Source of the DNA: Gigantopelta aegis
Taxonomy: Eukaryota; Mollusca; Gastropoda; Neomphalida; Peltospiridae
Assembly: GCF_016097555.1 (NCBI RefSeq)
Contig: NC_054703.1
Coordinates: 2,940,081 to 3,004,080, forward strand
Direction: 5' to 3'
Length of the DNA: 64,000 nt
A program made the translations under genes and the position numbers. Below the pieces are notes generated by a model, which saw nothing but the letters and a program-made list of their open reading frames with translations, was not told the origin of the DNA and did not search any database. Below are positions 13,547 to 50,030 of the stretch, in pieces; the stretch's first letter is position 1, and each line of letters begins with the position of its first letter.

Positions 13547-13630
13547 TATCAGCAGCAGGTGACGATATTCGTGGTTGGTTTCCAAGATGTGTGTGGTCAG
13601 CGGCTCACCCTGCTCAAACAAGTCAATGAG
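13547..13630 (+). CDS. Exon 4 of coiled-coil gene
   Basis: Acceptor 'cttgtttgtgaatttcag', donor GTGAGA, phase 0 on both sides. Encodes residues 89-116, YQQQVTIFVVGFQDV at the start and LLKQVNE at the end. TIFVVGF is the most hydrophobic stretch of the protein, too short for a membrane span. The last 18 bases plus the first 8 of the intron recur exactly in the downstream minisatellite. Confidence 0.82.
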
Positions 13631-14388
13631 GTGAGATTGTCACAGTAAAGAGATTGTCACAGTAAAGAGATTGTCACAGAAATGTAGTGAGATTGTCACA
13701 GTACAGGTAGTGAGATTGTCACAGTACAGGTAGTGTATTGTCACAGTACAGGTAGTGAGATTGTCACAGTACAGGTAGTGTATTGTCACAGTACAGGTAG
13801 TGAGATTGTCTCAGTACAGGTAGTGAGATTGTCACAGTCAAGAGCTTGTCACAGTACAGGTAGTGAGATTGTCACAGTAAAGGTAGTGAGATTGTCACAG
13901 TAAAGAGACTGTCACAGTACAGGTAGTGAGATTGTCACAGTATAGGTAGTGAGATTGTCACAGTAAAGGCAGTGAGATTGTCACAGTAAAGGTAGTGAGA
14001 TTGTCACAGTAAAGAGACTGTCACAGTACAGGTAGTGAGATTGTCATAGTAAAGGTAGTGAGATTGTCACAGTACAGGTAGTGAGATTGTCACAGTACAG
14101 GTAGTGAGATTGTCACAGTATAGGTAGTTAGATTGTCACAGTAAAGCTAGTGAGATTGTCACAGTATAGGTAGTGAGATTGTCACAGTAAAGGTAGTGAG
14201 ATTGTCACAGTATAGGTAGTGAGATTGTCACAGTAAAGGTAGTGAGATTGTCACAGTACAGGTAGTGAGATTGTCACAGTAAAGGTAGTGACATTGTCAC
14301 AGGACAGGTAGTGATATTATTACAGTAAAGGTAGTGGGATTATCACAATAAAGGTAGTGAGATTTTCACAGTAAAGGTAGTAATACTC
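13631..14388 (+). repeat. ~22-bp minisatellite starting at the exon 4 donor
   Basis: Starts at the first intron base (GTGAGATTGTCACAGT) and repeats it as TAGTGAGATTGTCACAGTA with 'cagg', 'aagg' and 'aaga' variants for about 750 bp. Confidence 0.95.
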
Positions 14389-17095
14389 AAACAAGTCAAT
14401 GAGGTGAGATTATCACATAAAGGTAGCAATATTGTCACAGTAAAGGTAGCAATATTGTCACATTAAAGCTAGTGATACTCAAACAAGTCGATGGGGTGAG
14501 ATTGTCACATTAAAGATAGTGATAGTCAAACGAGTCAATGGGGTGAGATTGTCAGATTAAAGATAGTGATAGTCAAACGAGTCAATGGGGTGAGATTGTC
14601 ACATTAAAGGTAGTGATAGTCAAACAAGTCAATGAGGTGAGATTGTCACATTAAAGATAGTGATAGTCAAACAAGTCAATGGGGTGAGATTGTCACATTA
14701 AAGGTAGTGATATTCAAACGAGTCAATGAGGTGAGATTGTCACATTAAAGTTAGTGATATTCAAACAAGTCAATGGGGTGAGATTGTCACATTAAAGGTA
14801 GTGATATTCAAACGAGTCAGTGGGGGTGAGATTGTCACATTAAAGACAGTGATAGTCAAACGAGTCAGTGGGGTGAGATTGTCACATTAAAGGTAGTGAT
14901 ATTCAAACGAGTCAGTGGGGGTGAGATTGTCACATTAAAGACAGTGATAGTCAAATGAGTCAATGGGGTGAGATTGTCACATTAAAGATGGTGATAGTCA
15001 AACAAGTCAATGGGGTGAGATTGTCACATTAAAGGTAGTGATAGTCAAACGAGTCAGTGGGGTGAGATTGTCACATTAAAGACAGTGATAGTCAAACGAG
15101 TCAATGGGGTGAGATTGTCACATTAAAGACAGTGATAGTCAAACGAGTCAATGGGGTGAGATTGTCACATTAAAGACGGTGATAGTCAAACGAGTCAATG
15201 GGGTGAGATTGTCACATTAAAGGTGGTGATAGTCAAACAAGTCAATGGGGTGAGATTGTCACATTAAAGATGGTGATAGTCAAACGAGTCAATGGGGTGA
15301 GATTGTCACATTAAAGATGGTGATAGTCAAACAAGTCAATGGGGTGAGATTGTCACATTAAAGGTAGTGATAGTCAAACGAGTCAGTGGGGTGAGATTGT
15401 CACATTAAAGACAGTGATAGTCAAACAAGTCAATGGGGTGAGATTGTCACATTAAAGACAGTGATAGTCAAACGAGTCAATGGGGTGAGATTGTCACATT
15501 AAAGATGGTGATAGTCAAACGAGTCAATGGGGTGAGATTGTCACATTAAAGGTGGTGATAGTCAAACGAGTCAATGGGGTGAGATTGTCACATTAAAGAT
15601 GGTGATAGTCAAACGAGTCAATGGGGTGAGATTGTCACATTAAAGATGGTGATAGTCAAACGAGTCAATGGGGTGAGATTGTCACATTAAAGATGGTGAT
15701 AGTCAAACAAGTCAATGGGGTGAGATTGTCACATTAAAGATGGTGATAGTCAAACAAGTCAATGAGGTGAGATTGTCACATTAAAGATAGTGATAGTCAA
15801 ACAAGTCAATGGGGTGAGATTGTCACATTAAAGATAGTGATAGTCAAACAAGTCAATGGGGTGAGATTGTCACATTAAAGGTAGTGATATTCAAACGAGT
15901 CAATGGGGTAAGATTGTCACATTAAAGGTAGAGATAGTCAAACGAGTCAATGGGGTGATATTGTCACATTAAAGGTAGTGATAGTCAAACGAGTCAGTGG
16001 GGTGAGATTGTCACATTAAAGACAGTGATAGTCAAACGAGTCAATGGGGTGAGATTGTCACATTAAAGACAGTGATAGTCAAACGAGTCAATGGGGTGAG
16101 ATTGTCACATTAAAGACGGTGATAGTCAAACGAGTCAATGGGGTGAGATTGTCACATTAAAGACGGTGATAGTCAAACGAGTCAATGGGGTGAGATTGTC
16201 ACATTAAAGACGGTGATAGTCAAACGAGTCAATGGGGTGAGATTGTCACATTAAAGACGGTGATAGTCAAACGAGTCAATGGGGTGAGATTGTCACATTA
16301 AAGACGGTGATAGTCAAACGAGTCAATGGGGTGAGATTGTCACATTAAAGACGGTGATAGTCAAACGAGTCAATGGGGTGAGATTGTCACATTAAAGACG
16401 GTGATAGTCAAACGAGTCAATGGGGTGAGATTGTCACATTAAAGACGGTGATAGTCAAACGAGTCAATGGGGTGAGATTGTCACATTAAAGACGGTGATA
16501 GTCAAACGAGTCAATGGGGTGAGATTGTCACATTAAAGACGGTGATAGTCAAACGAGTCAATGGGGTGAGATTGTCACATTAAAGACGGTGATAGTCAAA
16601 CGAGTCAATGGGGTGAGATTGTCACATTAAAGACGGTGATAGTCAAACGAGTCAATGGGGTGAGATTGTCACATTAAAGACGGTGATAGTCAAACGAGTC
16701 AATGGGGTGAGATTGTCACATTAAAGGTAGTGATATTCAAACAAGTCAATGGGGTGAGATTGTCACATTAAAGGTAGTGATATTCAAACCAGTCAATGGG
16801 GTGAGATTGTCACATTAAAGGTAGAGATAGTCAAACGAGTCAATGGGGTGAGATTGTCACATTAAAGGTAGTGATATTCAAACAAGTCAATGGGGTGAGA
16901 TTGTCACATTAAAGGTAGAGATATTCAAACAAGTCAATGGGGTGAGATTGTCACATTAAAGGTAGAGATATTCAAACAAGTCAATGGGGTGAGATTGTCA
17001 CATTAAAGGTAGAGATAGTCAAACAAGTCAATGGGGTGAGATTGTCACATTAAAGGTAGTGATATTCAAACAAGTCAATGGGGTAAGATTGTTAT
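14388..17095 (+). repeat. 47-bp minisatellite carrying copies of the exon 4 / intron 4 junction
   Basis: About 57 units. The first unit contains CTCAAACAAGTCAATGAG followed by GTGAGATT, identical to the last 18 exonic bases and donor of exon 4. Later units read CAAACGAGTCAATGGGGTGA. Unit subtypes differ just after CACATTAAAG (GACGG, GATGG, GACAG, GGTAG) and are clustered. A block near 16,090-16,720 is about a dozen identical GACGG units. The array stops ~20 bp before the exon 5 acceptor. Confidence 0.97.
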
Positions 17096-17113
17096 ATTAT
17101 TTGTTTTTTCCAG

Positions 17114-17310
17114 TTCTTTATGGAAAACTCAAAGTCGATCGAGGATGAGGACTGGTTTCCAAAGACTCCTGACCTTGACCTTGATGACGTACAGGACTCC
17201 ATCGAGGAGTCCCTCGACACAGCTTACACCCTGACGCGGCGACTCGGGGAACTGAACCGCGAGATCGTCGATTATCTCGCCACGTACGCAGAGAAGAAGG
17301 CTTCGAGCAA
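17114..17310 (+). CDS. Exon 5 of coiled-coil gene
   Basis: Acceptor 'ttgttttttccag', donor GTAAGC, entering in phase 0 and leaving in phase 2. Encodes residues 117-181 plus two bases of K182: FFMENSKSIEDEDWF at the start, a strongly acidic run (DLDLDDVQDSIEES), then a helix-prone region with RRLGELNREIVDYL. Highest GC of all exons. The last codon AA|A is completed by exon 6, giving ASSK-GKKKLEK. Confidence 0.85.
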
Positions 17311-17351
17311 GTAAGCATGTCTCACAGTGACGTTCATTGGTTCAGGGTATT

Positions 17352-17550
17352 AGTGGGCGGGATATAGGCCAGTGAAAAAATGCTCGCTTGATGTGTGGAT
17401 GGTCTAGGAACGATCCCCATCAGTGGACCCATTGGGCTATTTCTCGTCCAGCTAGTTCTAAGACTATACGTCAAAATTAACAAATGTTTGACATCCAAAA
17501 GCCGAACATTATTAAATCAATGTGCTCAGTGGTGTTGTTAAACAAAACAT
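17352..17550 (+). mobile_element. SINE-A, A2 tail, core-deleted
   Basis: Head (GGCGGGATATAGGCCAGTG, GAACGATCCCCATC) followed by a deleted core and A2 tail (CAGTGGTGTTGTTAAAC). Confidence 0.82.
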
Positions 17551-17782
17551 TGTTTCATTGTTTCATGTTTTTTACCTGATTATGTTTAGTTTTATACTGA
17601 CGAAACGTAGAATATTTTAAATGTTTTAATGTAAATTTTAAGGTGGTTTCGGTGGAAAGGTTTTATCTTTGTTTCAAAACAGGAGGCTGTTTATAATGCT
17701 ATAGTTTCCATAAACTCTGTAACATGTGCTGCATATCGTGTTACCATACATTTCAGCTTTACTGGTCTATCACAGATCCATG

Positions 17783-17917
17783 ATCACTGGTGTAGGAAGA
17801 GGGGGGCAAGGTGGGGGGGCATGTGTCCCCCTCTTTTCAGATATTTTGCTATATATTTGCTTTATAATAGTGTAAAAGTGTGTAAATATAAAAGTGTGCC
17901 CTTCCTACACCACTGAT
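17783..17917 (+). mobile_element. hAT-like MITE (CACTGGTGTAGGAAG ends)
   Basis: Left CACTGGTGTAGGAAG and right CTTCCTACACCACTG are inverted. Interior 'cagatattttgctatatatt' and 'gtgtaaatataaaagtgtgc' match the element at 45,114-45,262. Confidence 0.85.
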
Positions 17918-18047
17918 AATAGACCATTTGTGACTAAAAAAAAAAGAGTAAAGTTTTCATAAAAATTGCCATTGATCTATAGCCATTTGAGATAGTGGGA
18001 GACACCATTTTGAATTTATCTTTAGTTACGGAGTTGTCTCCTTTGAC

Positions 18048-18384
18048 TTAGGGCGGGATGTAGCCCAGTGGTAAAGCACTCGCTTGATGCGCAGTCAGTT
18101 TAGGATCGATCCCCATCAGTGGGCCTATTGGGCTATTTCTCGCTCCAGCCAGTGCACCACAACTGGTACATCAACGGCCGTAGTTTGTGCTATCCTGTCT
18201 GTGGGATGGTGCATATAAAAGATCTCTTGCTGCCAATCGAAAAGAGTAGCCCATGAAGTATTGACAGTGGGTTTCCTCTCTCGATATCTGTGTGGTCCTT
18301 AACCATATGTCTGATGCCATATAACCGTAAATAAAATGTGTTGAGTGCATTGTTAAATAAAACATTTCCTTCCTTTCTTTGACC
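18048..18384 (+). mobile_element. SINE-A, full length, A1 tail
   Basis: Complete order: A box (GTAGCCCAGTGGTAAAGC), B box (GGATCGATCCCC), core, 'gccatataaccgtaaataaa', terminus ATTGTTAAATAAAACATTTC and CTTT repeats. A good reference copy for the family. Confidence 0.93.
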
Positions 18385-18530
18385 CATGATTGACATTGCA
18401 GTCTCAAGACTGATGACGTTACCACAGAGATTGGTTGCTAGTATCTAAAATTTAGTCTGCAGTAACTTTCAGTATTTTGACTGGGATTTTGTTGAATTCA
18501 AATATAAATAATAGTAATATTATTACAAAG

Positions 18531-18911
18531 TTAAAGGGACAGGCCCTAGTGTTTAAACACTACAGCATATTGTTCACTATTAGAACCGTTTACGATCACT
18601 GAACTCAAACATTACTTATATTGCATTCTTTAGATTGTCCATTTCCGTAGAACCGAAGTGTTTTTGGTCATTCTGGTGTTTCTAATACCAAAAAATAGCA
18701 TTTTGAATATTTATAAAACCGCACGCTCGTCTGAGAAGTAGCGGTTTATTGATTCGAGTTCTAGTCTATTTTTAAAGAATATTTCCCGTTTTAATGTCAC
18801 AGACTCATCTTTCTCTCTATTGTAACTTTATCCAAATGAGTTACAGGTTTGTAAATTTACTAAACTTAGTGTCCGTTTTTACGGGTTAAAAACTAGGGTG
18901 TGCGTCTTTAA
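18531..18911 (+). mobile_element. TTAA-flanked TIR element, family D
   Basis: TTAA at both edges, ends AGGGACAGGCCCTAG and CTAGGGTGTGCGTCT. About 370 bp, no ORF. Confidence 0.85.
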
Positions 18912-19013
18912 CACATAAAAGAGCATATTCCTTTATGGGGCAAAAAAAATATCAATTATAATATTCATGAATCTACAAACTGTGGTGGGGTGGGTCTATG
19001 CCAGTGTATCATT

Positions 19014-19637
19014 TTAAAGTGACAGACCCTAGTTTTTAAACACTATGGCATGTTTTTAACTATTAGAACCATTTTTAATAATTGAAATAAGACGTTTAGA
19101 TTTTATTGTTCAGATTATCCATGTCCGTACATCCAAAGTGTTTCTGGTCATCCTGGTGTTTCTAATACTATGAAATGCATTTTTCATATTTTAAAAAATG
19201 TATGTACCTCTGAGAAGTAACAGTTAAGGATACAAGATCTAGTCTGTTTCTAAATATAAAGGGTATTCCCCTATTTCAACGTCACTGACTCTTATTTCAC
19301 TCTATCCATAACTGGTTCAACAAAGGCCATGGTTTGTGCTATCCTGCCTGTGGGAAGCACAAATAAACGATCCCTTGCTGCTAATCGGAAGAGTAGCCCA
19401 TGCAGTGGCGACAGCGGGTTTCCTCTCAAAATCTGTGTGGTCCGTAACCATATGTCTGACGCCATATAACCGTAAATAAAATGTGTTGAGTGCGTCGTTA
19501 AATAAAACATTTCTTTCTTTCTTTCTTATTTCACTATATATTGTAACTTTTTTAACAAATGTGATAACAGGTTTGCAGATTAACCAAACTTAGTATCTGT
19601 TATTTTCATGGCTTGAAAGTAGGATCTGTGTGTTTAA
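19014..19637 (+). mobile_element. TTAA-flanked TIR element, family D, with nested SINE
   Basis: TTAA at 19,014 and 19,634. Interior collinear with the copies at 18,531 and 19,939, except for a SINE inserted at about 19,304-19,524. Confidence 0.83.
19304..19524 (+). mobile_element. Chimeric-core SINE, A1 tail, nested in family D
   Basis: Core variant 'aactggttcaacaaaggcca' and GGGAAGCACAAATAAACG (the A/B chimera type) with an A1 tail. 'cttatttcact' on both sides is the target duplication. Confidence 0.85.
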
Positions 19638-19938
19638 AACACAAAATGTTGATAAAAGTACTCCTTACCAAATAAACATTTTGGATGTTTAAAATTAACA
19701 CAGTGGTAGGTGGGGGTGCCAAAATGAGTAGTGTTTGTACATATGTGAAAATATTGGTAGTTGTAAACGGTTCTCAAAAATAAAGGAGGAGGGGGCTGGG
19801 GTTGTACCAAGAAATATTAAAAAAATTATTGATAATTGCCGGGTTTTATTTGTAAAATTTGACTTGATGCCCATGGCTTTGTCTTTGGGAATTTTAGCTT
19901 TGTTTTACTAAATATTTGGAATTTTCAGTTTCATTTCA

Positions 19939-23299: not shown

Positions 23300-24465
23300 A
23301 GGGTTGTATAGATTTTGTTAAGATTACGTGAACAAGAATGTAGCCTACTTATTACCAACTTTACCCGGCACATATTTTTATCAGTCTTATTTCCTTACTT
23401 GCATGTTCTTAAAGGCATAAAATAATGTGCACATATCGTTATCGTTATATATTTAAAACACACAGTCTAGATGATATACAGTAAAACCTTCACACAAACA
23501 ATGTTTATTAGTTAAATTTACAGCACCTATACTTACAATTTAAAACATTTATTCAATTGTTTTTTAGTAAATTTTTGTATTAGGATATTTTTAGAAGAAC
23601 TGATGTTACTGTTATATTATTATCATGTTTTATACTATTATATTATTAACTTACACAAATGTTTTACTTAAAATGCTCACTGCACCAAATAACCTGTTAC
23701 ATTAGATGTGAAATTTTCTACGTGTTTAATTACTGACAATTTCATATCTGCACTTTTTACATTTTTAATGCACTTTGAAATTCAAAGTTCTTTTTACACA
23801 AAAATATCTTAGATAGTTTTTCAATGTTTTTTAAAAATTATATTTGCATGTGTTTACTTGCCAAACCAATATAATACTCGGATATTTTTATAATCCCGTA
23901 CTTTAAACCCATGTTTTTTAATTGCTTTTATATGTTAAATTCTCATTCCTTGATCTAAGAATACATATTCCGTTTGCCAAATTTTGCATGTATTTGAAAA
24001 TGTACATTATAGATACAATATGCAGCATTCCATAATAAAGCTTTCATTTATAGTGCATGTAATTTAGCAGTTAAAAAGTGACATTATATGTTTCAGTATA
24101 TCTTAATAAAGCATCCATTTATGCATGTATGTATATATATTTTTAGAAATTTATATTATGGCGCTTTTTTATGTTGCAATATGCATGTCTATTAAAAATA
24201 TTTAGACCTTTGATTAATTTTTTCGTACAGTCTTAATGAGATGTGTTTTTATTTTGAATTTCCTTTTTTGGGGAGGGGGGGGGGAAGTATGGATACAGAA
24301 TTCGAAAATGCGGAACTGAAAATAGTCATAGGAGGAGGTTTCTTCTCTAGTGTTTCAGACAGTTTTATAGATTAATCTTCTGATGATACATGTTTAAAGA
24401 AAACAAAAAAACTTTAAAAATAATAATTTACATGGCTGTAATACATGTACAAATGTATTAATAGC
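23300..24465. other. AT-rich intron 5 sequence, nothing recognised
   Basis: Over 1 kb with no shared repeat, no array and no exon-like peak. Confidence 0.55.
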
Positions 24466-24479
24466 CTCGCCACTCATTT

Positions 24480-24702
24480 TGCCATATGTTTTAAACTTCC
24501 TATAAAAGAGTTCCACGATTTACAAATGAAACTTGCTCAGGGGTTGCAATGGAATTCCCTCCATTTTGGTTCAATTAAAATATTTTTGGATATACAATAG
24601 CAAATTTTGGTATTCCAAATGAATGTAATTTTCGTTTATAATCCACATTTAGAGAAATGAGGCCCTGTAAATGATCGCAAATTTGTGACATAATGCCTTT
24701 AA
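24480..24702 (+). mobile_element. TTAA-type element, family F, 5'-diverged
   Basis: Collinear with 35,100-35,255: 'gaatgtaattttcgtttata', then TAATGCCTTTAA at the right edge. The left TTAA end is not clear. Confidence 0.6.
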
Positions 24703-24805
24703 TATCTTTTACAGTTAAATCTACTTTATCTGGTAGTAGGTGTAAGATCTAAGGCCCGCTTTCCCACAATGCAATTTTGTGTGTGTTTTTGCATGCGAGT
24801 TTATT

Positions 24806-24866
24806 GATATATATATTGATTGATTGATTGATTGATTGATATATATTGATTGATTGATTGATTGAT

Positions 24867-24903
<37 letters not shown>
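24806..24903. repeat. (GATT)n and (TA)n microsatellite
   Basis: Two blocks of GATTGATTGATT separated by TA repeats, then 30 bp of pure TA. Confidence 0.93.
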
Positions 24904-24907
<4 letters not shown>

Positions 24908-25184
24908 CTTTTTCATATAAAGATGCATTTCTGTGTTTGGACATTCAGCGCACAGAAAAAAAGTTGATATATTGGCAATTTCACAATGCACAATTTTTCA
25001 GTGTGGTGATGTCGTAACGTGTTTAATTACTAAGTACACTTTAATGACATCAAATTTGGTATATAGTAATCCACTTACTAGTAATCTGTGTGTTGAAATG
25101 TGTTAATGGATGCAGGTCTAACTCAGTTTGTAGCACACTTAATTGTCAGACGTGCATTCCATGGGACATATAGAATTGAAACTT

Positions 25185-25500
25185 GTTGGTGGGTTCCATT
25201 TTTTTTTATAGGATTTCCCCCACCTACCAACCAGTGTCCCATGACTGGCAATAAAAGACTGGGTATGTGGTTCCCTGTCTGTGGGAAAATGTGGAAAAGA
25301 TTCTCATGCTACTACAGGGCTTCTAGATTATGGTAGCCCCACTCCCATGGTTAGTGATATTCAATGTTGGGCTAGTAAATAACTAATATTGCCATGCCAG
25401 ACAGGACTTCTAGATTATGGTAGCCCCATTCCTATGGCTAGTGATATACAGTGTTGGGCTAGTAAATAGCTCTGTTGCCATGCCCAATGTTGTTAAACAT
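25185..25500 (+). mobile_element. Diverged SINE core followed by family G repeat
   Basis: 25,185-25,318 resembles an old SINE-A core (CCCTGTCTGTGGGAAAATG). From 25,316 the 'agggcttctagattatggta' repeat appears, duplicated at 25,405, and it is related (opposite strand) to 37,395-37,690 and 60,165-60,500. Confidence 0.6.
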
Positions 25501-25596
25501 CTATTCTATTCTATTATCTAGCAATACATGGGTTTTAGCTGTGTGTTGTTTGTTCTGTAACAGATAAAATCTTAACACATAATCTTTGAGAATAGG

Positions 25597-25808
25597 GGCA
25601 GAAAGTAGTCCAGTGGTAAAGCGATCACTTGATGTGCAGTCAGTGTGGGATCAATCCCCCTCATGATTGCAGTGGACCCATTGGGTTATTTCTCGTTCCA
25701 ACCAGTGCACCACGACTGGTATATCAAAGGCCACCAAATGTTTGACATCCAATAGCGATGATAGATTAATCAATGTGCTCTAGTGGTGTTGTTAAACAAA
25801 ACAAACTT
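25597..25808 (+). mobile_element. SINE-A, A2 tail
   Basis: Head (GTAGTCCAGTGGTAAAGCG, GGGATCAATCCCC), shortened core, A2 tail to GTTAAACAAAACAAAC. Inserted just after a copy of the segment preceding exon 6. Confidence 0.88.
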
Positions 25809-25964
25809 CTGGTCCCGATGGTATCCCATTTAGAGGAGTTTCACTGTATATCGTTTCTGATAATTAATGTTAAAGTTTCATATTTAGATCAGTTTCTCAC
25901 AAACTAGAAGTCCTAGGTCATTATGGTAGGTGAGACAAGAAATTTCCCAGAATTCTTGTAACTG

Positions 25965-26096
25965 TGTGCTGTTTGTTCTCTAATAGATACGCTCTAAACA
26001 AATAATCATTAAATCTTTGAAAATATATTGTATCCAGTTGTTTAATTATTCAGCTCATTGCTTTCAGAGAGAAGAAGAACATGTTACATTAGTCTT
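25965..26096 (+). pseudogene. Decayed tandem copy of the exon 6 acceptor region
   Basis: Repeats the ~120 bp ahead of exon 6 and continues into exon-like bases: acceptor 'cattgctttcag' at 26,067, then AGAGAAGAAGAACATGTTAC against AGGGAAGAAGAAGCTGGAG in exon 6, with a short deletion. A further partial copy of the upstream part is at 25,508-25,596. The copy is frameshifted relative to exon 6. Confidence 0.7.
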
Positions 26097-26218
26097 TATC
26101 TAGCAGTACATGGGTTTTTGCTGTGTATTGTTTGTTCTGTAACAGATAAAATCTTAACACATAATCTTTGAGATTATACTGTATCCAGTTGTTTAATCAT
26201 TCATCTCATTGCTTACAG

Positions 26219-26304
26219 AGGGAAGAAGAAGCTGGAGAAACTGTTACAGCAAACCAAGGACGAGGTGTTCAGCCTTCAGGAGAAACTTTTAAATCTTCAG
26301 ACCG
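26219..26304 (+). CDS. Exon 6 of coiled-coil gene
   Basis: Acceptor 'catctcattgcttacag' and donor GTTAGT, phases 2 in and 1 out. Completes K182 and encodes 183-210 plus one base of E211: GKKKLEKLLQQTKDEVFS, then LQEKLLNLQT. The start of the long coiled coil, with leucines at heptad spacing. A one-base shift of the acceptor would give an implausible frame, which supports this border. Both its upstream and its downstream borders have been duplicated into the introns. Confidence 0.85.
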
Positions 26305-26354
26305 GTTAGTAGTTAACCCTTTAGCAACTACAGTCAGGCCCATAGCATGGTGGA

Positions 26355-26395
26355 CATTATTGGGGGGGGGGGGGGGGGGGGGGGGTGGGGGGCAC
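26355..26395 (+). repeat. G homopolymer tract
   Basis: A G run of about 25 followed by TGGGG, 50 bp into intron 6; potential G-quadruplex on the transcribed RNA. Confidence 0.9.
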
Positions 26396-26611
26396 AACTG
26401 AATGAGTGCCAAATGCGTGAGTTATTTTGGGGGACCAGGGGAACGATTCAAAGGTTATTTGCCCATTACTGGAACTCGTTGATAATCTCGATCCGTTAGT
26501 CTCGATCTGTTAATCTTGATCCGTTAGTCTCGATCCGTTAGTCTCGCTACAACTTTTACATTCAGTCGAGATGTAAAGGTTATCAAAAAAAACAAAAAAA
26601 ACTGTGTTTGA

Positions 26612-26860
26612 GAAATCACAAACTTTTAAACCTTCAGACCAGTTAGTAGTTAATCCTTTAGCTACTACAGTTCTTCATTACACTCGCCTTGATGTTGAGG
26701 CTGTCTTCTGGTGGAAAGTAGACAGAATTAAAAGGGTTAAACTGTGTTTGACAAATCACAAACTTTTAACCCTTCAGACCGGTTAGTAATTAATCCTTTA
26801 CCTGCTACAGTTCTTCATTACACTCTCCTTAATGTTGAGGTTCTTGTCTGGTGGAAAGTA
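26612..26860 (+). repeat. Two tandem copies of the exon 6 / intron 6 junction (~144-bp unit)
   Basis: Copies at 26,617 and 26,757 contain 'aacttttaaaccttcagacc' and 'aacttttaacccttcagacc', followed by AGTTAGTAGTTAATCC and GGTTAGTAATTAATCC. The real junction reads AACTTTTAAATCTTCAGACC then GGTTAGTAGTTAACCC. A third, diverged copy lies at 27,855-27,910, beyond a MITE. Confidence 0.9.
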
Positions 26861-27821: not shown

Positions 27822-27960
27822 TAGTTCATAGAATTGATAGGTTTAAAATGTGTTTCACAAATCACTTCTGTTACAGACTAGTGAATAGTTAACCCTTTCA
27901 CATCTACAGTGTTATTATTAATTCTCTTTGTATGTTGTGTAACTGTGTTTTAATGTGTAG

Positions 27961-28217
27961 AGGTTTTTCGTGCTGGGGTGTCGTTAAACATCTATTCTAT
28001 TCTAATTTGTAGAGGTTTTTCGTGCTGGGGTGTCGTTAAACATCTATTCTATTGTAATGTGTAGAGGTTTTTCATGCTGGGGTGTAGTTAAACATCTATT
28101 CTAATCTGTAGATGTTTTTCTTGCTGGGGGGTGTCGTTAAACATCTATTCTATTCCAATCTGTAGATGCTTTTCGTGCTGGGGTGTTGTTAAACATCTAT
28201 TCTATTTTAATATTCAG
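27961..28217 (+). repeat. 52-bp array in register with the exon 7 acceptor
   Basis: Units begin AGAGGTTTTTCGTGCTGGGG and end 'taaacatctattctattcta' plus ATTTGTAG. Unit starts at 27,961, 28,013, 28,065, 28,112, 28,166; the next start would be 28,218, which is the first base of exon 7. The unit resembles the tail of another SINE family (compare 58,515-58,590 minus). Confidence 0.92.
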
Positions 28218-28318
28218 AGGTGGAAGAGAAGGAAGACAAGATGCAGGCTCTGTTCCGACAGCTCGAGTCGAAGACCTTCGAGATCCAGCGATTCAGAACA
28301 GCCGCCGAGGTCGCCAAG
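28218..28318 (+). CDS. Exon 7 of coiled-coil gene
   Basis: Acceptor 'attttaatattcag', donor GTAACA, phase 1 in and 0 out. Completes E211 and encodes 212-244: VEEKEDKMQALFRQLESK, then TFEIQRFRTAAEVAK. Continuous coiled coil, no proline or glycine. GC-rich compared with the flanking array. The exon starts exactly where another 52-bp repeat unit would start. Confidence 0.87.
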
Positions 28319-31439: not shown

Positions 31440-32680
31440 ATCACTGGTCAAGATCTCACATTAGTAGGCTTGATTTCCAGTGTATATATGCATGTACTTG
31501 TATTCTTGACATAAACCTGTTATGTATAGCGGCTGCTTATACATGGCCCGTTTCCAATGTATATATATGCATGTACTTGTATGCTTGATATGAACCTGTT
31601 ATGTATAGAGGCTGCATATACTTGGCCCATTTTTCTCATGGCTAAAATTCAGGGGTGTGAGAGCTATGTGGAAATGCGTAAATGCACTTTTCCATTTCAT
31701 CAACAACATGATGTTCAATACTGTTGACCACACAAGGTTCATTTGCATGTTTTCATGGTTTCAAGTTTATGATGTGTGCCTTATATTATAACTTATAACC
31801 AGTTTAGATTTGTTAGCATTGAATGCAATTTTTGGCAGTTCCAGGGGTTGCAGATAACAATTTTCCTTCAGGGGCTGCAGTAAGCTTTTTTGTTCCAGCC
31901 TCTCTCACATCCCTGAAAATTAATGGAAGGGGGTACAGAGTTAACTCCTCCCACCACCACAGTCATATTTCAGACAAAATAACTTTCAGAGTATTTCTGG
32001 AATGAATTAATGTTAAAAAAAAAATATACATATATGCAGCTTTTGAATCAGACCAGTAGGCAGTATATAACAGGTTTATGTCATAGTCATTATATATCTG
32101 TCTTTTTTCACAGTCTCCACACTGCATGGTGCATGCCAAGAAAACATGAAATTAAGTCAAACACAGCCATTCTTTTTTTTTCTTTCTTTTTTTGGTTATA
32201 TTACAATACTGCTTTTTTGGGATATTAAAATAAAAATTATCAATTAAAAAATAAAATCAGTAAACAAACTGTTAATATATTTTCAAAATCACATCTCTGC
32301 CCAATGCAGAGTTCAAAGGATGTTTTTTTACCAGGCTGTGATTGTATCATGAATCACTGTCAGACCTGTGTCTATTATTTAGGAAGACTATACAACTTCA
32401 AAGCTGATACAAAATCCTTCAATGACTGGGTATCTGATTAATAAAACAAATTTATAAAGACTGAGTCTAAAATATTTTTTTAATATTTACAAAAAAAACA
32501 AAAAACAATTGACATTGAAGACTAACAGTATGGTTTTCTTACAGTTATTGTTCTCTTGAATGGCTTTTGTTGTTTTACTTAATTTAGTGTTGCTTTGAGG
32601 ATACATTTTAATGAAATTGGAAACTTGGAAATATTCTGTATTGTGCTTGAGTCATCTCATCAAACCTCCTTGACAGACCA
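31440..32680. other. AT-rich intron 7 sequence
   Basis: Only a diverged direct duplication of ~105 bp (GTATATATGCATGTACTTGT at 31,480 and 31,558) is visible. Nothing exon-like. Confidence 0.5.
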
Positions 32681-33407: not shown

Positions 33408-33575
33408 AAGAATATGCAGGATGCCGAAGCTTTGAAAGCTCAAATCGCTAGTCGTGATGAAAAAATCCAAGAAATGAGACAGCAGATAAGTCGTTTAGAA
33501 ATCGAACTGACCTCATCCAATCATAGCAAAGATAGAAACGACTCCAAACTCATGCAGGAGAGCGAAGAAACACAG
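33408..33575 (+). CDS. Exon 8 of coiled-coil gene
   Basis: Acceptor 'tactactaacag', donor GTTTGT, phase 0 on both sides. Encodes residues 245-300: KNMQDAEALKAQIASRDE, then KIQEMRQQISRLEIEL, followed by an S/N/D/K-rich linker (TSSNHSKDRNDSK) and ending QESEETQ. The linker probably breaks the coiled coil near 279-290. AT content is higher than in exons 5-7. The end of the exon and its donor are repeated, diverged, twice downstream. Confidence 0.85.
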
Positions 33576-33900
33576 GTTTGTATAGTAACCTCCACCCCCC
33601 ACAGTTTGAGTTGGTACATTCTAACTGCACTGTTTTGGATTGGTCTATTTTATATATTGGGTAATTTCTTTTGTTTGGCTTTTAGATGATTCTGCTTGTA
33701 GAATGAAAACCAAAGGGTTGTGTAGTGACATCAACCCCCACAGTGTAAGTTGGTACATTCCTAGTGCACATTTTGGATTGGACTATTTTGTATCTTGGGT
33801 AATTTGTTTTGTTTTGTTTGGCTTATATAGATAATTCTGCTTGCAGAATGAAGACCGAATGTTTGTATAGTAATGTCTACCTCACAGTTTGAGGTTAATA
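33556..33900 (+). repeat. Three ~143-bp copies beginning at the exon 8 donor
   Basis: Junction-like starts at 33,576 (GTTTGTATAGTAACC), 33,717 (GTTGTGTAGTGACATC) and 33,861 (GTTTGTATAGTAATG), spaced 141 and 144. Each is preceded by a purine-rich stretch like the exon end (GAATGAAAACCAAAGG, GCAGAATGAAGACCGAAT versus GCGAAGAAACACAG). Confidence 0.82.
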
Positions 33901-34117
33901 CCCCAGAATATTTTGTTTTAAAATTTTGATTAGTGATAATTAGTGATCAGTTAAAATTTAGTTGAAACTACTATTTAATGTTTTAGAATTGCATAGCAAT
34001 CACTGAAATTTGTGTAGCAAATAACAATTCAATTCCCTAAATACAGTTTTAAATCAGTGGGGGTTGCAGTGGGGAAAGGGTTAAAGATCAGTTCCAGTCA
34101 AAGTACATGTACTTAAA

Positions 34118-40965: not shown

Positions 40966-41820
40966 GGGCGAGATCTAACTCAGTTGGTTGAGCGCTCGCT
41001 TGAGGTACTTGCATCATAGGATCAAATCACCTCAGTGAACCCATTCTGTAATTGAGTTTTTCTCTGTCCCAACCAGTTCACCACAACTGGCATATCAAAA
41101 CACATGGTATGTACTATCCTATCTGTGGGAAAGTGTATATACACTGTAAAAGATCCCTTGCTACTTACTAATGGAAAAATGTAGCAGGTTTCCTCTGTAA
41201 GAATAGATGTCAGAATTAACAAATGTTTGACGTTCAATAGCCGATGATTAATAAATCAATGTGCTCTAGTGGTGTCGTTAAACAAAACAAACTTCTTTTT
41301 CCAATAGCCGATGATTAATAAATCAATGTGCTCTAGTGGTGTCGTTAAACAAAACAAACTTCTTCTTCCAATAGCCGATGATTAATAAATCAATGTGCTC
41401 TAGTGGTGTCGTTAAACAAAATAAACTTCTTTTTCCAATAGCCGATGATTAATAAATCAATGTGCTCTAGTGGTGTCATTAAACAAAATAAACTTCTTCC
41501 AATAGCCGATGATTAATAAATCAATGTGCTCTAGTGGTGTCGTTAAACAAAATAAACTTCTTTTTCCAATAGCCGATGATTAATAAATCAATGTGCTCTA
41601 GTGGTGTCATTAAACAAAATAAACTTCTTCCAATAGCCGATGATTAATAAATCAATGTGCTCTAGTGGTGTCATTAAACAAAATAAACTTCTTTTTCCAA
41701 TAGCCGATGATTAATAAATCAATGTGCTCTAGTGGTGTCATTAAACAAAATAAACTTCTTTTTCCAATAGCCGATGATTAATAAATCAATGTGCTCTAGT
41801 GGTGTTGTTAAACAAAACTT
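40966..41820 (+). mobile_element. SINE-A with a second type of tRNA head; tail expanded 9-fold
   Basis: Head ATCTAACTCAGTTGGTTGAG...TAGGATCAAATC looks like an ordinary tRNA A/B box pair and differs from the common SINE-A head. Core and A2 tail follow. From 41,241 the last ~67 bp are repeated: CCGATGATTAATAAATCAA at 41,241, 41,308, 41,375, 41,442, 41,506, 41,573, 41,637, 41,704 and 41,771 (spacing 67 or 64). Confidence 0.92.
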
Positions 41821-43429: not shown

Positions 43430-43800
43430 TTATATATACAAGTCCTGCATTATATGTATACTAGGTAATTATAAATCAAAATACAGAGGTAATTTTTAAG
43501 CAAAATACATCCTAGTTAATTTTTAAGCAAAATACATACTAATTTTTAAGCAAAATACATAGGTAATTTTTAAGATAATGGTAATTTTTAAGCAATATAG
43601 TTTGTCCCAGTTAATTTAATTTAAACTCAGCCTAAGAGTGTATTTGTGATTGGTATAGTAATATATATAGTATATATATACAAGTCAAATGCATGTAATA
43701 TATATAGTATATACACATGTATATACAAGTCAAATGCATACTAATTTTTAACATAATGGTAATTTTTAAGCAATATAGTTTGTCCCAGTTTGACTTTTAA
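43430..43800. repeat. Short tandem repeats (TTTTTAAGCAAAATACAT)
   Basis: Four copies near 43,490-43,580, plus a duplicated segment containing 'gtgattggtatagtaata' (43,415 and 43,647) and GGTAATTTTTAAGCAATATA (43,580 and 43,760). Confidence 0.75.
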
Positions 43801-43990
43801 AGACTTTTACACACCCATTGGTGAGAACATCATTCGTTATTTTTGATAACACATACTGTTAACACACATATGTGCGATAACATTTTAAAGACATGACTGG
43901 CTGCTCCTAGGTGATGACCAGGTTACCAATGCCATACATCCAATGAAAGAAAAAAAGCACAGTTGAATCGATCACTCTGTGATGTCACTT

Positions 43991-44010
43991 GGGTCACTTA
44001 GGTCATGACC
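43991..44010 (+). promoter_or_regulatory. Cluster of nuclear-receptor half-sites
   Basis: GGGTCACTTAGGTCATGACC holds two direct half-sites with 3-bp spacing and an abutting inverted one. 300 bp upstream of exon 9, in otherwise unremarkable sequence. Could be chance. Confidence 0.25.
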
Positions 44011-44303
44011 ACGGAATAGCCAATCACAAGTCTTAGAAGTGATCTCCAGAATATGTATCAAAAATCACAATAGCTGATGGCATATCGTGACAGGCCTGCA
44101 TAATGTATAGCCAGTGTTTCTAGAATACTGTATATTCCTGGATATAATATGTGGATGAAAATATTTTCATCCGAACTCAATGTATAACAATTACAAATTC
44201 TCTTGTCATGGACCATTTTTCTTATTTTATAATCCTAGCTATGTACTTTCTGTTTAGTTTTTACGTATACATATTATTTGAACGTATTATGTTTTTCTTC
44301 TAG

Positions 44304-44370
44304 CACCGAATGGCAGAGCTGGAGAAGGAAGTAGAGGAGAAAAGACTGGCCATAGAAAATGTCAGGAGAG
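44304..44370 (+). CDS. Exon 9 of coiled-coil gene
   Basis: Acceptor 'tatgtttttcttctag', donor GTCAGT, phase 0 in and 1 out. Encodes residues 301-322 and one base of D323: HRMAELEKEVEEKRLAIE, then NVRR. Pure coiled coil. The preceding intron is the longest complete one (10.7 kb). Confidence 0.83.
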
Positions 44371-44464
44371 GTCAGTCAAGGGAGATAATCCTCTTTTTTT
44401 TTCATTGTGATAATTATTGACATTGACAAAACTATATCATTTAACAAGCATTCTGAGAGTACTG

Positions 44465-45110
44465 CTAAAGCGAGACATATGTGTCTCGTGCCGGACCCAA
44501 TTTGTATTCATGCCTCCTTAGTTTAAGGGCCATAACTCTGTGACTAATGGGTAAATCGACATAAAGGTTAAACTAGATCTGTAATAGTAGTTAATAAAGC
44601 TATATACCAAATTTTATCTCAGTATCTTCAGGCATTGGAGAAAAACAAATCTGGAAAACTAATTTTCATATCTCCTAAGTTTAAGGGCCATAACTCTGTG
44701 AAAAATGGGTAAATTGACATGAAAGTTAATCTTGATTTGGAATAGTACATAACACAGCTACATGTATATACAAAATTTCATCTCAATATCTTCAGGAATT
44801 GGAGAGAAAAAAAGTCTCGAAAACATATATTTTCATATCTTCTACATGTAAGTTCAAGGGCCATAACCCTGTCAAAAATCGGTAAATTGTTACGAAAGTC
44901 AAATTTGATCTAAAATAGAACATGATAAAGCTATACACAAAGTTATAACTCAGTATATTGAGGTATTGGGACACAGTGCGTAAAATAAATTTCCGTATTT
45001 CCTAACTTCAAGGGCAATAACTCTGTCAAAAGACTTAACAAAACCAAAATTCTCTTTACTAATGTCAGATTTCTGATGTTCTGTTGGAAACAGGGTGTAC
45101 ATGTAGCTTA
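44465..45110 (-). mobile_element. Family L element, minus strand
   Basis: Four diverged copies of 'aagggccataactctgtgaa' with 'tctcagtatcttcaggcatt' in between, the reverse complement of the core repeat at 45,400-47,200. Confidence 0.8.
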
Positions 45111-45113
45111 GTC

Positions 45114-45262
45114 ATTGGCGTAGGAAGCAGGGGGGGGCAAGGTGGGGCATGTGCCCCCCGTTTTCAGATATTTTGCTTTATATTTGCTTTATAATAGTGT
45201 AAAAGTGTGTAAATATAAAAGTGTGCACCCCACCACTTTTTGGCACCTTCCTACGCCACTGT
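45114..45262 (+). mobile_element. hAT-like MITE
   Basis: Left CATTGGCGTAGGAAG, right CTTCCTACGCCACTG. Interior shared with 17,783-17,917, plus a CACTTTTTGGCACC insertion. Confidence 0.87.
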
Positions 45263-46278
45263 TAGTGGTTTCATTATTTTTATGACTGATTAAAAGTGTC
45301 CTACGGGTCCAACGGGAGGGGACTATAGGTATTATCCCTGTCCTTCTGTCTGTCCGTCTGTCTGTCTGTCCCACATATAGTTTTACCAATGTTTTTTTTC
45401 TCATAAACTTAGAACTTAGACATACAAAAATGTGTTTTCCAGCTTTTGTTTTTGCAATGCTTCAAGATATTGAGCTGAAATTTTGTGTACAGATTTATCA
45501 TGTACTGATACAGATAAAAAAAGTTTGACTTTCATGGCAATTACCTATTTGACTGGAAATAAGCCATGGGGGCCAAGACAACTCATTGTTAGCTTAGCAT
45601 GGGGTGGGCTTATTCCCAGACAAGGGGCCAGTTTTGTTGAGAATTTTTTTTAATAATAATAATAATTAAAATAAATAATAATTAAATTAACTAGGAAGAA
45701 AACAAAAAACGTTCAGTAGCACATCTATTAATTAGTGTTCCATTTGTTATTAATAAATAATAATTGTTTATTAATTAAATTGATTTTTTTTTTTTACTAG
45801 TATCTAATTATCAGAAACACCACTTCTATGTTACAATTACTTACCAGTGCTGTTTATTTACATCCAAAATTTAATGTTGAGAAGACTTAAAACAACAGCA
45901 ATTAACAACAAACTCAATAGGGTATACACACATTTCTGATACAGGCAGCCAGCTAACACTACAAAGAATTGTCGATCGAGGTCATTGTTCTTAGCCAATC
46001 AGAATAAGGTATTTGCTTAATTAGCATTACCTGCGGACCCAGTGTGATGGTAAAAATAGACATTGGTTTTAGTTCAGACTTGGGCTGTGTACTTCAAAGA
46101 AATACTGCAGGCATGAAATTGAAAACAATGTTACACACTGTTACTGTTAGACTGCTAAATCTCACTGGTGGTAAAATATTGTGTTACATTTGTGTTTCAT
46201 TATCTGCAGGAGGTATGACCTTTTAAAAGAACTTTGAGCAAACTTGTAATTTCGAGTTATTTATAAGGTGACGAAGTT

Positions 46279-46362
46279 GGGGGGGGGGGGGGGGGGGGGC
46301 TTATTTACGAATGAGGGCCTAATTTCTTAAATGCTATCAAAATGGGAGGGGGGGGGGGGCTT
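46279..46362 (+). repeat. Two G homopolymer tracts
   Basis: Runs of about 21 and 13 G, each followed by CTTATT, inside a duplicated ~65-bp segment. Confidence 0.9.
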
Positions 46363-47229
46363 ATTCAAAGACATGAGCTAATTTCTGGTCAAATAGGGTA
46401 ATTTTACCCATTTTTTCACAGAGTTATGGCCTTTGAACTTAGAAGATATGAAAATTTGTTTAACAGAAATTTTTTTGTTTGTTTTTGCAATGCCTTAAAA
46501 TTTTGTATATACCTTTATCACTTACTGTTACAGATCGTAACGATTTACCCATCATGTACTGTTACAGACCAAGTTTGATTTTCATGATGCTTTACTAATT
46601 TTTAACACAGTTGTGGCCCTTGAAAGTGATACAGACGTGTTTTCCAGAAAACAAATTTCCGCAGTGACTCAGGATATTGAGCCAATATTTTGTGTATAGC
46701 TTCACCACATACTGTTACAGATCAAGTTTGACTTTAATGGTGATTTATCCATTTTTCACAAAGTTATGTCCCTTGAACTTACAAGAGACAAAAAAATTCC
46801 AGAATTTGTTTCACAATGCCTCAGAATATTGAGCTGAAATTTGGTGCATAGCTTTATCATGTTCTGTTACAGATCAAGTTTGACTTTAATGGCGATTTAT
46901 CAATTTTTCACAAAGTTATGTCCCTTGAACTTAGAAGATACAAAAAAAATGTTTTCTTGAATGCCTAAAGATACTGAGCTGATATTTTGTATATAGCTTT
47001 ATCGTGTACTGTTGACTTTCATGTCAATTTACCCATTTATTTCTCAGAGTTATGTCCCTTGAACTTAGAATTAAAAAAAAAAAAATCTTGAATGCCTCAA
47101 AATATTGAGCTGAAATTTTTGCTATAGCTTTATCATGTATTGTTAACTTTCATGGCGATTTACCCATTTTTTTCAAAGTTAGTCCCCTATCATTTGAACT
47201 GGAGGGGACTATAGGTTTCATCTCCATTC

Positions 47230-47985
47230 TTCTGTCTGTCTGTCTGTCTGTCCATATGTCAGTCAGTCTGTCTGTCCGTCCGTCTGTCTGTCAATCTGTC
47301 TGTCTGTCTGTCCATTTGTCTGTCCGTCTGTCTGCCTGTCCATCTTTCTGTCTGCCTGTCTGTCTGTCCATCTGTCTGTCCATCTGTCAGTCTGTCTGTC
47401 CATATGTCTGTCTGTCCATATGTCTGTCTGCCTGTCCATCTGTCTGTCTCTGTCCATCTGTCTGTCTGTCCATCCATCTGTCTGTCTGTTCATATGTCTG
47501 TCTGTCTGTCTAACCATCTGTCTGTCTGTCGGTCTGTCTGCCTGTCCTGTCTGTCTGTCTGTCCATATGTCTGTCTAACCATCTGTCTGTCCATCTGTCT
47601 GTATGTCTGTCCATCTGTCTGTATGTCCATCTGTCTGTCTGTCCATATGTCTGTCTGTCCATCTGTCTGTCTGTCCATATGTCTGTCTGTACATCTGTCT
47701 GTCTGTCTGTCTGTCTGTCCATCCATCCATATGTCTGTCTGTCCATCTCTCTGTCCATCCATCTGTCTGTCTGTCCATCTATCTGTCCATCCATATGTCT
47801 GTCTGTCCATCTGTCTGTCCATCTCTCTGTCCATCCATCTGTCTGTTCATCTGTCTGTCTGTCTGTCCATCTCTCTGTCCATCCATCTGTCTGTCCATCT
47901 GTCTGTTCAGCTGTATGTCTGTCTGTCCATCTCTCTGTCCATCCATCTGTCTGTCCATCTGTCTGTTCATCTGTCTGTCTGCCCC
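47230..47985. repeat. (TCTG)n / CCATCTG compound microsatellite
   Basis: 750 bp of TCTG with CCAT and ATGTCTG interruptions; in the second half it forms longer units (CATCTCTCTGTCCATCCATC). All six frames are partly open, so long C/L/S and D/R/Q/T frames appear without meaning. Confidence 0.97.
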
Positions 47986-48179
47986 ACATTGTTTTTTGAA
48001 TGTTTTATTTACAGTGCCTCAAGATAATGAGCTGTAGGTTTATTAGGTTTGACAGAGTTATTGCCCTTGAACTTAGGAGATTCAAATATTTGTTGAGCCT
48101 CATAGGGCACATGTATTGCTTTAACATTACTCTCACTGGGCAGAACTATCAACTCAGCTGCCCCTAATGATAGTCCACG

Positions 48180-48566
48180 GAAAGAAAGAAATGTTTTATT
48201 TAACGACGCACTCGACACATTTTATTTACGGTTATATGGCATCAGACATATGGTTAAGGACCATACAGAGTTTGAGAGGAATCCCGCTGTCGCCACTACA
48301 TGGGCTACTCTTTCCGATTAGCAGCAAGGGATCTTTTATTTGTGCTTCCCACAGGCAGGATAGCACAAACCATGGCCTTTGTTGAACCAGTTATGGATCA
48401 CTGGTCGGTGCAAGTGGTTTACACCTACCCATTGAGCCTTGTGGAGCACTCACTCAGGGTTTGGAGTCAGTATCTGGATTAAAAATCCCATGCCTCGACT
48501 GGGATCCGAACCCAGTACCTACCAGCCTGTAGATCGATGGCCTAACCACGATGCCACTGAGGCCGT
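48180..48566 (-). mobile_element. Chimeric SINE (B-like head, A core, A1 tail)
   Basis: Minus strand: head with GTGGTTAGGCCATCGATC and GGGTTCGGATCCC boxes, a linker ('tgggtaggtgtaaaccactt'), then the A core in its 'aactggttcaacaaaggcc' variant and A1 tail (GTCGTTAAATAAAACATTTC). ATGATAGTCCACGG and ATGATAGTTCATGG flank it, an imperfect 14-bp target duplication. Confidence 0.9.
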
Positions 48567-48616
48567 TTGATGATAGTTCATGGATTTGGTTTCTTTATAA
48601 CACAAAAATAAACCTC

Positions 48617-48690
48617 CATTCAAGGGATTTGAACCTGAGACCCTCACTATTAAGAGTGCAGCACTCCACCAACTGAGCTAATAGGGAAAT
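48617..48690 (-). tRNA. tRNA-Lys(CTT)-like sequence, probably a pseudogene or SINE head
   Basis: Minus strand: TAGCTCAGTTGGTGGAGTGC (D-arm/A box), GCACTCTTAATAGTG (anticodon arm reading CTT), GGTTCAAATCC (B box). The T stem is weak and the 5' TTCCCTA has no pairing partner at the 3' end, so a functional tRNA is unlikely. Confidence 0.5.
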
Positions 48691-48788
48691 TCCCACTAGC
48701 TACTGCTAGTAGGAGAACTTTATACCAACACTACTACATGAAATCTCCCAGAATGCTTGTTTTTATATTATTTTATTTTTATCTTCAG

Positions 48789-48895
48789 ACCTGGAGAAGA
48801 TGCATGAGGGTCAAATTCAGTCGATAATGGAGCAACATCGACAAGAGATGGAGAAGCTCAAGAAACAGCACCAGGAAGAACTGAAGAAACTACAG
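48789..48895 (+). CDS. Exon 10 of coiled-coil gene (last in window)
   Basis: Acceptor 'ttattttatcttcag', donor GTAACG, phase 1 in and 0 out. Completes D323 and encodes 324-358: LEKMHEGQIQSIMEQHRQ, then EMEKLKKQHQEELKKLQ. Very regular heptads with an H/Q/K/E composition. No stop codon; the next exon is not identified in the remaining 15 kb. The last 8 exonic bases and the donor are the seed of the array that follows. Confidence 0.87.
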
Positions 48896-50030
48896 GTAAC
48901 GTGCATTGTTTTATTTCACTGTCACCCCAGTGCTGTAACTATAGGTAACGTGCATTGTTTTACTTCACTGTTACCCCAGTGCTGTAACTATAGGTAACGT
49001 GCATTGTTTTACTTCACTGTCACCCCAGTGCTGTAACTATAGGTAACGTGCATTGTTTTACTTCACTGTCACCCCAGTGCTGTAACTATAGGTAACTGCA
49101 TTGTTTTACTTCACTGTCACCCCAGTGCTGTAACTATAGGTAACGTGCATTGTTTTACTTCACTGTCACCCCAGTGCTACATCTATAGGTAACGTGCATT
49201 GTTTTACTTCACTGTCACCCCAGTGCTACAACTATAGGTAACGTGCATTGTTTTACTTCACTGTCACCTCAGTGCTGTAACTATAGGTAACGTGCATTGT
49301 TTTACTTCACTGTCACCTCATTGCTGTAACTATAGGTAACGTGCATTGTTTTACTTCACTGTCACCCCAGTGCTACATCTATAGGTAACGTGCATTGTTT
49401 TACTTCACTGTCACCCCAGTGCTGTAACTATAGGTAACGTGCATTGTTTTACTTCACTGTCACCCCAGTGCTATAACTATAGGTAACGTGCATTGTTTTA
49501 CTTCACTGTCACCCCAGTGCTACATCTATAGGTAAACTGCATTGTTTTACTTCACTGTCACCCCAGTGCTGTAACTATAGGTAACGTGTATTGTTTTACT
49601 TCACTGTCACCCCAGTGCTACATCTATAGGTAACATGCATTGTTTTACTTCACTGTCACCCCAGTGCTATAACTATAGGTAACGTGCATTGTTTTACTTC
49701 ACTGTCACCCCAGTGCTGTAACTACAGGTAATGTACATTGTTTTACTTCACTGTCACCCCAGTGCTACATCTATAGGTAACATGCATTGTTTTACTTCAC
49801 TGTCACCCCAGTGCTATAACTATAGGTAACGTGCATTGTTTTACTTCACTGTCACCTCAGTGCTGTAACTACAGGTAACGTGCATTGTTTTACTTCACTG
49901 TCACCCCTGTGCTGTAACTACAGGTAATGTGCATTGTTTTACTTCACTGTCACCCCAGTGCTACATCTATAGGTAACATGCATTGTTTTACTTCACTGTC
50001 ACCCCAGTGCTATAACTACAGGTAACCTGC
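48896..50030 (+). repeat. 49-bp minisatellite carrying the exon 10 donor, ~23 copies
   Basis: GGTAACGTGCATTGTTTTA recurs every 49 bp from the true donor (48,896; then 48,945, 48,994 and on to 50,022). Each unit is preceded by AACTATAG or AACTACAG, as in the exon (AACTACAG). Each also contains 'tttacttcactgtcacccca' ending in CAG, an acceptor-like signal 14 bases before the next donor. One more diverged piece sits at 50,411-50,445. Confidence 0.97.

Follow-up and report, generated by a model that had tools for sequence, protein, structure and literature searches.

Tandem copies of exon-intron borders in the vent snail Gigantopelta aegis, and their probable origin in tolerated intronic duplication

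Results

The stretch of DNA analysed here (the window, 64,000 nucleotides) comes from the vent snail Gigantopelta aegis, and the RefSeq protein P0001 matches exons of a single gene within it. The P0001 model gives exons at 3662-3686, 5046-5209, 9455-9523, 12875-12919, 13547..13630, 17114-17310, 26219..26304 and 28218..28318, and a last exon from 32114; because it includes 3662-3686, its exon numbers seem to run one above those of the original prediction. Molluscan homologs, among them those of Nucella and Lymnaea, add exons at 33408..33575 (+ strand), which is absent from P0001, and at 48789..48895 (+). Homology with Nucella predicts a further exon between 33575 and 48789, apparently present in the earlier model too; a motif scan did not find it. 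Since its only Pfam matches lie below the curated cut-offs, the gene stays an uncharacterised coiled-coil-like protein.

Tandem copies that clearly span an exon-intron border, which we call mirages after the amphioxus cases discussed below, stand at three donors of this gene, 13631, 26305 and 48896. At the first, 47-bp units over 13631..17099 (+), where shorter, mostly intron-only units come first, repeat the 5' splice site together with the final ~17 bases (all or part of CTCAAACAAGTCAATGAG) of the exon 13547..13630 (+, exact in P0001); TRF reports 58 units at 14357-17099, border alignment gives 38, 67, 72 or 77 copies depending on the search, and GT is retained in 77 of 77. The exon 26219..26304 (+, P0001 and border alignments) is copied at both ends. 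Downstream of it, TRF and alignment find two ~140-bp copies at 26599..26860 (+) carrying AAACTTTTAAACCTTCAGACC(G/A)GTTAGTA, and 22 exonic bases recur at +337, +477 and ~+1576 from the donor, the third copy, near 27880, being degenerate. Its acceptor border has a single copy at 26046..26090 (+), 151 bp upstream, with the copied exon start at 26068. Finally, the exon 48789..48895 (+) is followed by a 49-bp array at 48888..50030 (+), for which TRF counts 23.3 units, each AACTATAG then GTAACGTGCATT, and which holds 22 border copies; here only ~8 exonic bases are copied (AACTACAG vs AACTATAG).

Two further arrays are less clear. Donor 33576 has two copies downstream, at +140 and +285, within 33576..33920 (+); both are degenerate (identity ~0.78), with alignment scores that pass 22 but fall short of our counting threshold of 24. 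A 52-bp array found by TRF at 27951..28211 (+) adjoins the 3' splice site of exon 28218..28318 (+), but alignment across that border gives 0 spanning copies, and the exon sequence is uncopied. The original prediction had claimed five cases among ten introns, one of them this array, said to be in exact phase with the 3' splice site. Three of the five are clear, one is weak, and the array does reach the splice site without carrying the border, while a sixth case, the acceptor of exon 26219, had been missed. For the predicted units of 47, ~144, ~143, 49 and 52 bp we find 47, ~140, ~143, 49 and 52 bp. We count mirages at 4 of 18 window borders (donors 13631, 26305 and 48896 and acceptor 26219); RefSeq donor 3687 and the junction with the alternative last exon are left out of this count, and exons 33408 and 48789 are included. 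A tandem, minisatellite-like character is seen in the 47- and 49-bp arrays; at 26305 and 26219 the copies are few.

TRF repeats make up 34.6% of the window, and thus arrays that touch borders are unsurprising in themselves. The border copies do exceed what unrelated DNA yields: at score 24, 15/105 donors and 9/103 acceptors (window included) match their own neighbourhood, against 0/105 and 1/103 for an unrelated 4-kb region.

We compared the window with seven myosin-gene regions (A-G) of the same genome, so that the sample comprises one gene superfamily plus the window, and counted a border copy at an alignment score of at least 24. Before counting we dropped 1 of 28 modelled introns in region A (33527, poor splice scores), 1 of 21 in D (donor 139, doubtful first exon; acceptor 2352 was retained), 7 of 17 in B, where alternative-looking exons contributed 4 donors and 2 acceptors, each added singly, 8 of 14 in F, 3 of 13 in E, 0 of 11 in C and 0 of 10 in G. 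The reasons were tiny exons, poor splice scores or uncertain tails, and the selection was made once the crude result was known. A low-complexity or edge filter removed another 2 of 107 donors and 3 of 106 acceptors. In the seven regions, border-spanning copies occur at 12/96 donors and 8/94 acceptors, so the window gene, to which the pattern had first been ascribed, is not exceptional. Mirages recur on several chromosomes and affect both 5' and 3' borders, with units of varying length, roughly 36-180 bp, and a median copy-to-border identity across arrays of 0.73 to 0.97. The 20 counted include weak cases, such as A 47035 (a single copy with identity 0.76 and GT not kept), F 2807 (0.80) and D 35038 (0.73).

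Are borders duplicated more often than the introns around them? The original prediction had proposed such a comparison genome-wide; in our sample, outside the window, 20/190 borders are duplicated against 453/1543 intronic positions, and a cruder 30-mer test points the same way (6/82 borders, 396/1599 intronic positions). Outside the window, on the donor side of introns 1.1 kb or longer, duplication coverage climbs from 0/52 at -60 and 4/52 at -30 to 9/53 at the border, 12/51 at +15 and 20/47 at +300. In these introns coverage shows no peak at the border, for donors or acceptors; it simply rises from exon to intron. Moreover, the border rate of a gene tracks its intronic duplication (Spearman 0.81, p = 0.015, over 8 genes; with the window left out, 0.75, p = 0.052).

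An array-edge control gives, uncorrected, 12/96 donors against 79/1543 positions (p = 0.009); once extra copies are removed and the window is excluded there is no significant excess (donors p = 0.06, acceptors 0.69, combined 0.11), whereas with the window included donors reach p = 0.02. Short introns have no excess (borders 4/79 vs 47/681). Long introns do (16/105 vs 121/1643, p = 0.008), with the reservation that mirages themselves lengthen introns, and where the intron measures 1.1 kb or more, array edges fall at +15 in 23/97 cases against 44/644 deep positions (p = 2e-6). Dilution of the deep intron by transposons may account for this long-intron excess beside borders.

As to which copy is spliced, the exon-proximal one is used at 15 of 15 borders in annotated (predicted) proteins, the 15 being the counted borders for which an exact annotated protein exists. 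In 7 of 8 hand-picked donors, splicing at the next copy would cause a frameshift or a stop. One unit, of 36 bp, keeps the frame and has no stop. Copied sites often equal the real site in splice strength, and GT is kept in 42 of 42 copies at the myosin VIIa donor 31821. Over 13 hand-picked arrays, the GT or AG of the copies lies at a mean percentile of 0.52 of intronic dinucleotide conservation.

Discussion

Our analysis suggests that mirages probably arise from passive tolerance of frequent intronic tandem duplication rather than from a dedicated system. We propose that introns of G. aegis often gain and expand local tandem duplications. Where such a duplication covers the end of an exon together with the 5' splice site, the original exon end would stay in place and the extra copies would become intronic; where it covers an acceptor, the extra copies would sit upstream. 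If the copy nearest the exon body keeps being spliced, the duplication would be close to neutral and the array free to grow, while selection would remove duplications within exons. The near-neutrality of border duplication would follow from the use of the proximal copy; the choice of site would presumably depend on proximity or exon definition, and the growth of the array on slippage or unequal exchange. Tolerance of this kind had been suggested in the original prediction on the ground that every copy could act as the border. The tolerance itself is supported, but interchangeable copies are not what we see, given proximal use in the annotated proteins at all tested borders and next copies that, in most donors tested, would break the frame or introduce a stop.

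The same prediction offered a second explanation, namely that exon borders seed tandem duplication. Borders might actively start or bound it, for instance by way of R-loops or of DNA breaks linked to transcription or splicing, with arrays starting preferentially at splice sites. We consider this unlikely, and as the main cause it is not supported: coverage by duplication is lower at borders than inside introns, the border peak is absent, short introns lack an excess and the border rate follows general repeat density. The observations that speak for it are the uncorrected donor excess, one myosin VIIa intron in which copies of the donor fill the 5' part and copies of the acceptor the 3' part, and, in long introns, the crowding of array edges within ~15-30 bp of a border, because of which there may be a modest border bias. 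A stronger form takes splice borders as the true start or boundary points of tandem duplication, given that arrays begin 2-4 times oftener beside exons than deep in introns, and has introns grow to a good extent inward from both borders, as the myosin VIIa intron suggests; it likewise strikes us as doubtful.

Could the copies instead be kept for a function, as spare or alternative splice sites or as decoys that tune splicing? The retention of GT or AG in nearly all copies of many arrays, the strength of the copied sites and the open 36-bp unit would fit, and units of the human IFI6 minisatellite do act as donors (PMC4526556). Since, however, GT and AG are no more conserved than neighbouring dinucleotides, and the frame and the annotated proteins both speak against use of the further copies, we hold this to be very improbable. 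Least credible of all is that assembly errors produced the arrays or that the exon borders are wrong: tandem arrays are hard to assemble and copy numbers may be off, but the copies differ mutually, the borders agree with exact RefSeq proteins in all 15 cases, the window exons agree with homologs from several molluscs and the pattern recurs across chromosomes.

Mirages stand at about one border in ten of this mollusc sample, while the literature searched describes them for single amphioxus genes; with enough cases for statistics and a background rate at hand, the cause of border duplication becomes directly testable. The border-copy scan can be applied to any long-read genome. For annotation there is a caution, in that runs of near-perfect pseudo splice sites may flank the real ones.

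The original prediction knew of no named system of this kind, but one exists: the "mirages" of amphioxus, border duplications described in the globins BflGb6 and BflGb9 and in Adh3 (PMC3087553), to which TnC and PGBD5 were added (PMC3902484). As far as the available text of these papers goes, the likeness is close. In both animals exon-intron borders undergo minisatellite-like tandem duplication on donor and acceptor sides, each intron has its own unit (10-72 and 150-160 bp in amphioxus, PMC3087553, vs roughly 36-180 bp in G. aegis), and many though not all copies keep AG/GT. The hosts differ, one being a cephalochordate and the other a gastropod mollusc, and so does the evidence: in amphioxus RT-PCR showed normal splicing and allele comparison showed instability, whereas for G. 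aegis we have annotated (predicted) proteins from one assembly and a rate measured against background. Among gastropods, the available portions of work on hemocyanin (PMC7931591) and on abalone TSSK1, which has a 27-bp intronic minisatellite (PMC6905558), do not describe border copies.

Two human cases complete the comparison, again from partial texts. The minisatellite of IFI6 (6-16, G1P3) likewise places tandem units with splice donors at an exon end, but its downstream units serve as donors, giving three mRNAs (PMC4526556), whereas the annotated proteins of G. aegis use the proximal copy only, where tested. At exon-intron boundaries in human, internal tandem repeats represent minisatellite expansion (PMC2812944), and the Rogers model, as cited in PMC3087553, derives intron gain from AG/GT duplication. 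Both propose new introns, whereas in G. aegis it is existing introns that grow.

Results

Tandem duplications spanning an exon-intron border, which in amphioxus were named mirages, are present in the window gene and are not peculiar to it. Comparing 60-base border windows with the surrounding 4 kb and counting matches at score 24, we find border-spanning copies at 4 of 18 window borders. Chance matches at this score are rare (unrelated-region control: donor windows 0/105, acceptor windows 1/103). Of the arrays originally predicted, those at donors 13631, 26305 and 48896 do carry such copies, the copied exonic part at 48896 being only about 8 bases; donor 33576 passes at score 22 but stays below 24, with identity near 0.78; and at the 52-bp array before exon 28218 no alignment spans the border. 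Acceptor 26219, absent from the predicted cases, has a border-spanning copy at score 24.

Tandem repeats (TRF) occupy 34.6% of the 64-kb window, or 31.8% for periods of at least 20 bp. A recurrent GTGTCGTTAAACAAAATAAACTT-like motif, which looks like a molluscan SINE tail, occurs at 41235-41817, where it is tandemly amplified in 67-bp units (TRF), and at 13460-13515; the 52-bp array before exon 28218 (27951-28211) has a similar GGTGTCGTTAAACA motif.

The window lies at C5:2940081-3004080 of the 1.15-Gb assembly of this peltospirid snail, and the RefSeq protein of its gene, P0001, is 'uncharacterized protein LOC121373472 [Gigantopelta aegis]'. All 10-residue words of our spliced model are present in P0001, to which the model was fitted by construction. 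Gastropods, bivalves and an annelid have related proteins, and P0001 matches no Pfam family above the family cut-off. Its last exon (32114-32146) is an alternative one; since the downstream exons 33408-33575 and 48789-48895 are conserved and match homologs of other molluscs, the P0001 model looks truncated, or one isoform.

The comparison set consists of seven other regions of this genome (A-G, 270 kb in total) with matches to the myosin head family, chosen by family and by clustering of matches, repeats playing no part. Their genes were modelled with a spliced aligner; two models follow exact annotated proteins (myosin VIIa, P0020; non-muscle myosin, P0026), and the other five are based on homology. 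The sample is one gene superfamily plus the window, its genes picked for easy exon finding. In these regions 12 of the 96 donors have border-spanning copies, as do 8 of the 94 acceptors; some of these cases are weak (A 47035, F 2807, D 35038). The pattern is not confined to one gene. The window's rate of 4/18 resembles those of myosin VIIa (region D, 9/40) and region F (3/12); region B has 3/24, and the copy-poor regions A, C, E and G have 3/52, 1/22, 1/20 and 0/20. Units measure 47 and 61 bp at myosin VIIa donors, 79 bp at a region-C donor and 36 bp at a region-A donor, while a region-B myosin donor is followed by eight copies spaced 80 bp apart. Among 102 introns, both borders are copied in 3, one in 17 and none in 82.

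The myosin VIIa intron C1:27074373-27076854 (region D 24373-26854) consists mostly of about 15 donor-border copies, often 128 bp apart, in its 5' part; at least four acceptor-border copies follow in the 3' part, built on a unit unrelated to that of the donor set. Region B (12802-17446) has three alike myosin exons near 12802-12912, 13821-13916 and 17351-17446, which look like mutually exclusive alternatives.

Discussion

Do exon borders seed tandem duplication, one of two options in the original prediction? Without the window, borders are duplicated less often than intronic positions (20/190 versus 453/1543; deficit p = 4e-9), by a plain coverage control that is generous because an intron array may extend both ways, though hardly into the exon. 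Coverage rises from exon to intron with no peak at the border. A stricter edge control, restricted to positions that fall in a terminal unit of an array (first or last), gives an uncorrected excess for donors (12/96 versus 79/1543, p = 0.009) and none for acceptors (8/94 versus 89/1543, p = 0.26). With the extra copies removed from the denominator, p is 0.06 for donors, 0.69 for acceptors and 0.11 combined, or 0.02, 0.85 and 0.06 with the window included. In these counts positions inside one intron are non-independent, and some introns were removed after the crude test result was known.

The excess is absent from short introns (4/79 versus 47/681, p = 0.8) and present in those of at least 1.1 kb (16/105 versus 121/1643, p = 0.008), a split confounded by mirages themselves lengthening introns. 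In the latter, array edges at +15 number 23/97 versus 44/644 at deep positions (p = 2e-6). Later insertions dilute the deep intron, and a repeat content such as that of another G. aegis assembly, which an excerpt of PMC7736800 puts at 64.17%, could explain an excess of about this size. The border rate per gene tracks intronic duplication (Spearman 0.81, p = 0.015; with the window removed, 0.75, p = 0.052).

The other suggestion was tolerance because any copy can serve as the border. That reason is not supported: in the annotated (predicted) proteins all 15 borders compared (myosin VIIa 9, non-muscle myosin 3, window 3) use the copy nearest the exon. For 7 of 8 donors, splicing at the next copy would change the frame or run into a stop; the remaining one, in region A, has a 36-bp unit that is open and in frame. 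Across 13 arrays, GT/AG varies among the copies about as much as adjacent dinucleotides of the intron do (mean percentile 0.52), and the copies' splice scores, from a weight matrix written from general knowledge, often equal the real site's and are lower at the three window donors. We infer that the copies may be nearly neutral and that splice sites would be chosen by proximity or exon definition.

The original prediction gave no named system of this kind; such repeats are already named mirages, and the excerpted text of PMC3902484 ascribes them also to TnC and PGBD5. In excerpts, human IFI6 has repeat units acting as donors (PMC4526556) and human exon-intron boundaries carry tandem repeats (PMC2812944). 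No mollusc mirage was recognised among the matches listed in open-licence PMC text. As far as these searches reach, within the open-licence text covered, the snail case is a fresh occurrence of an already named phenomenon.
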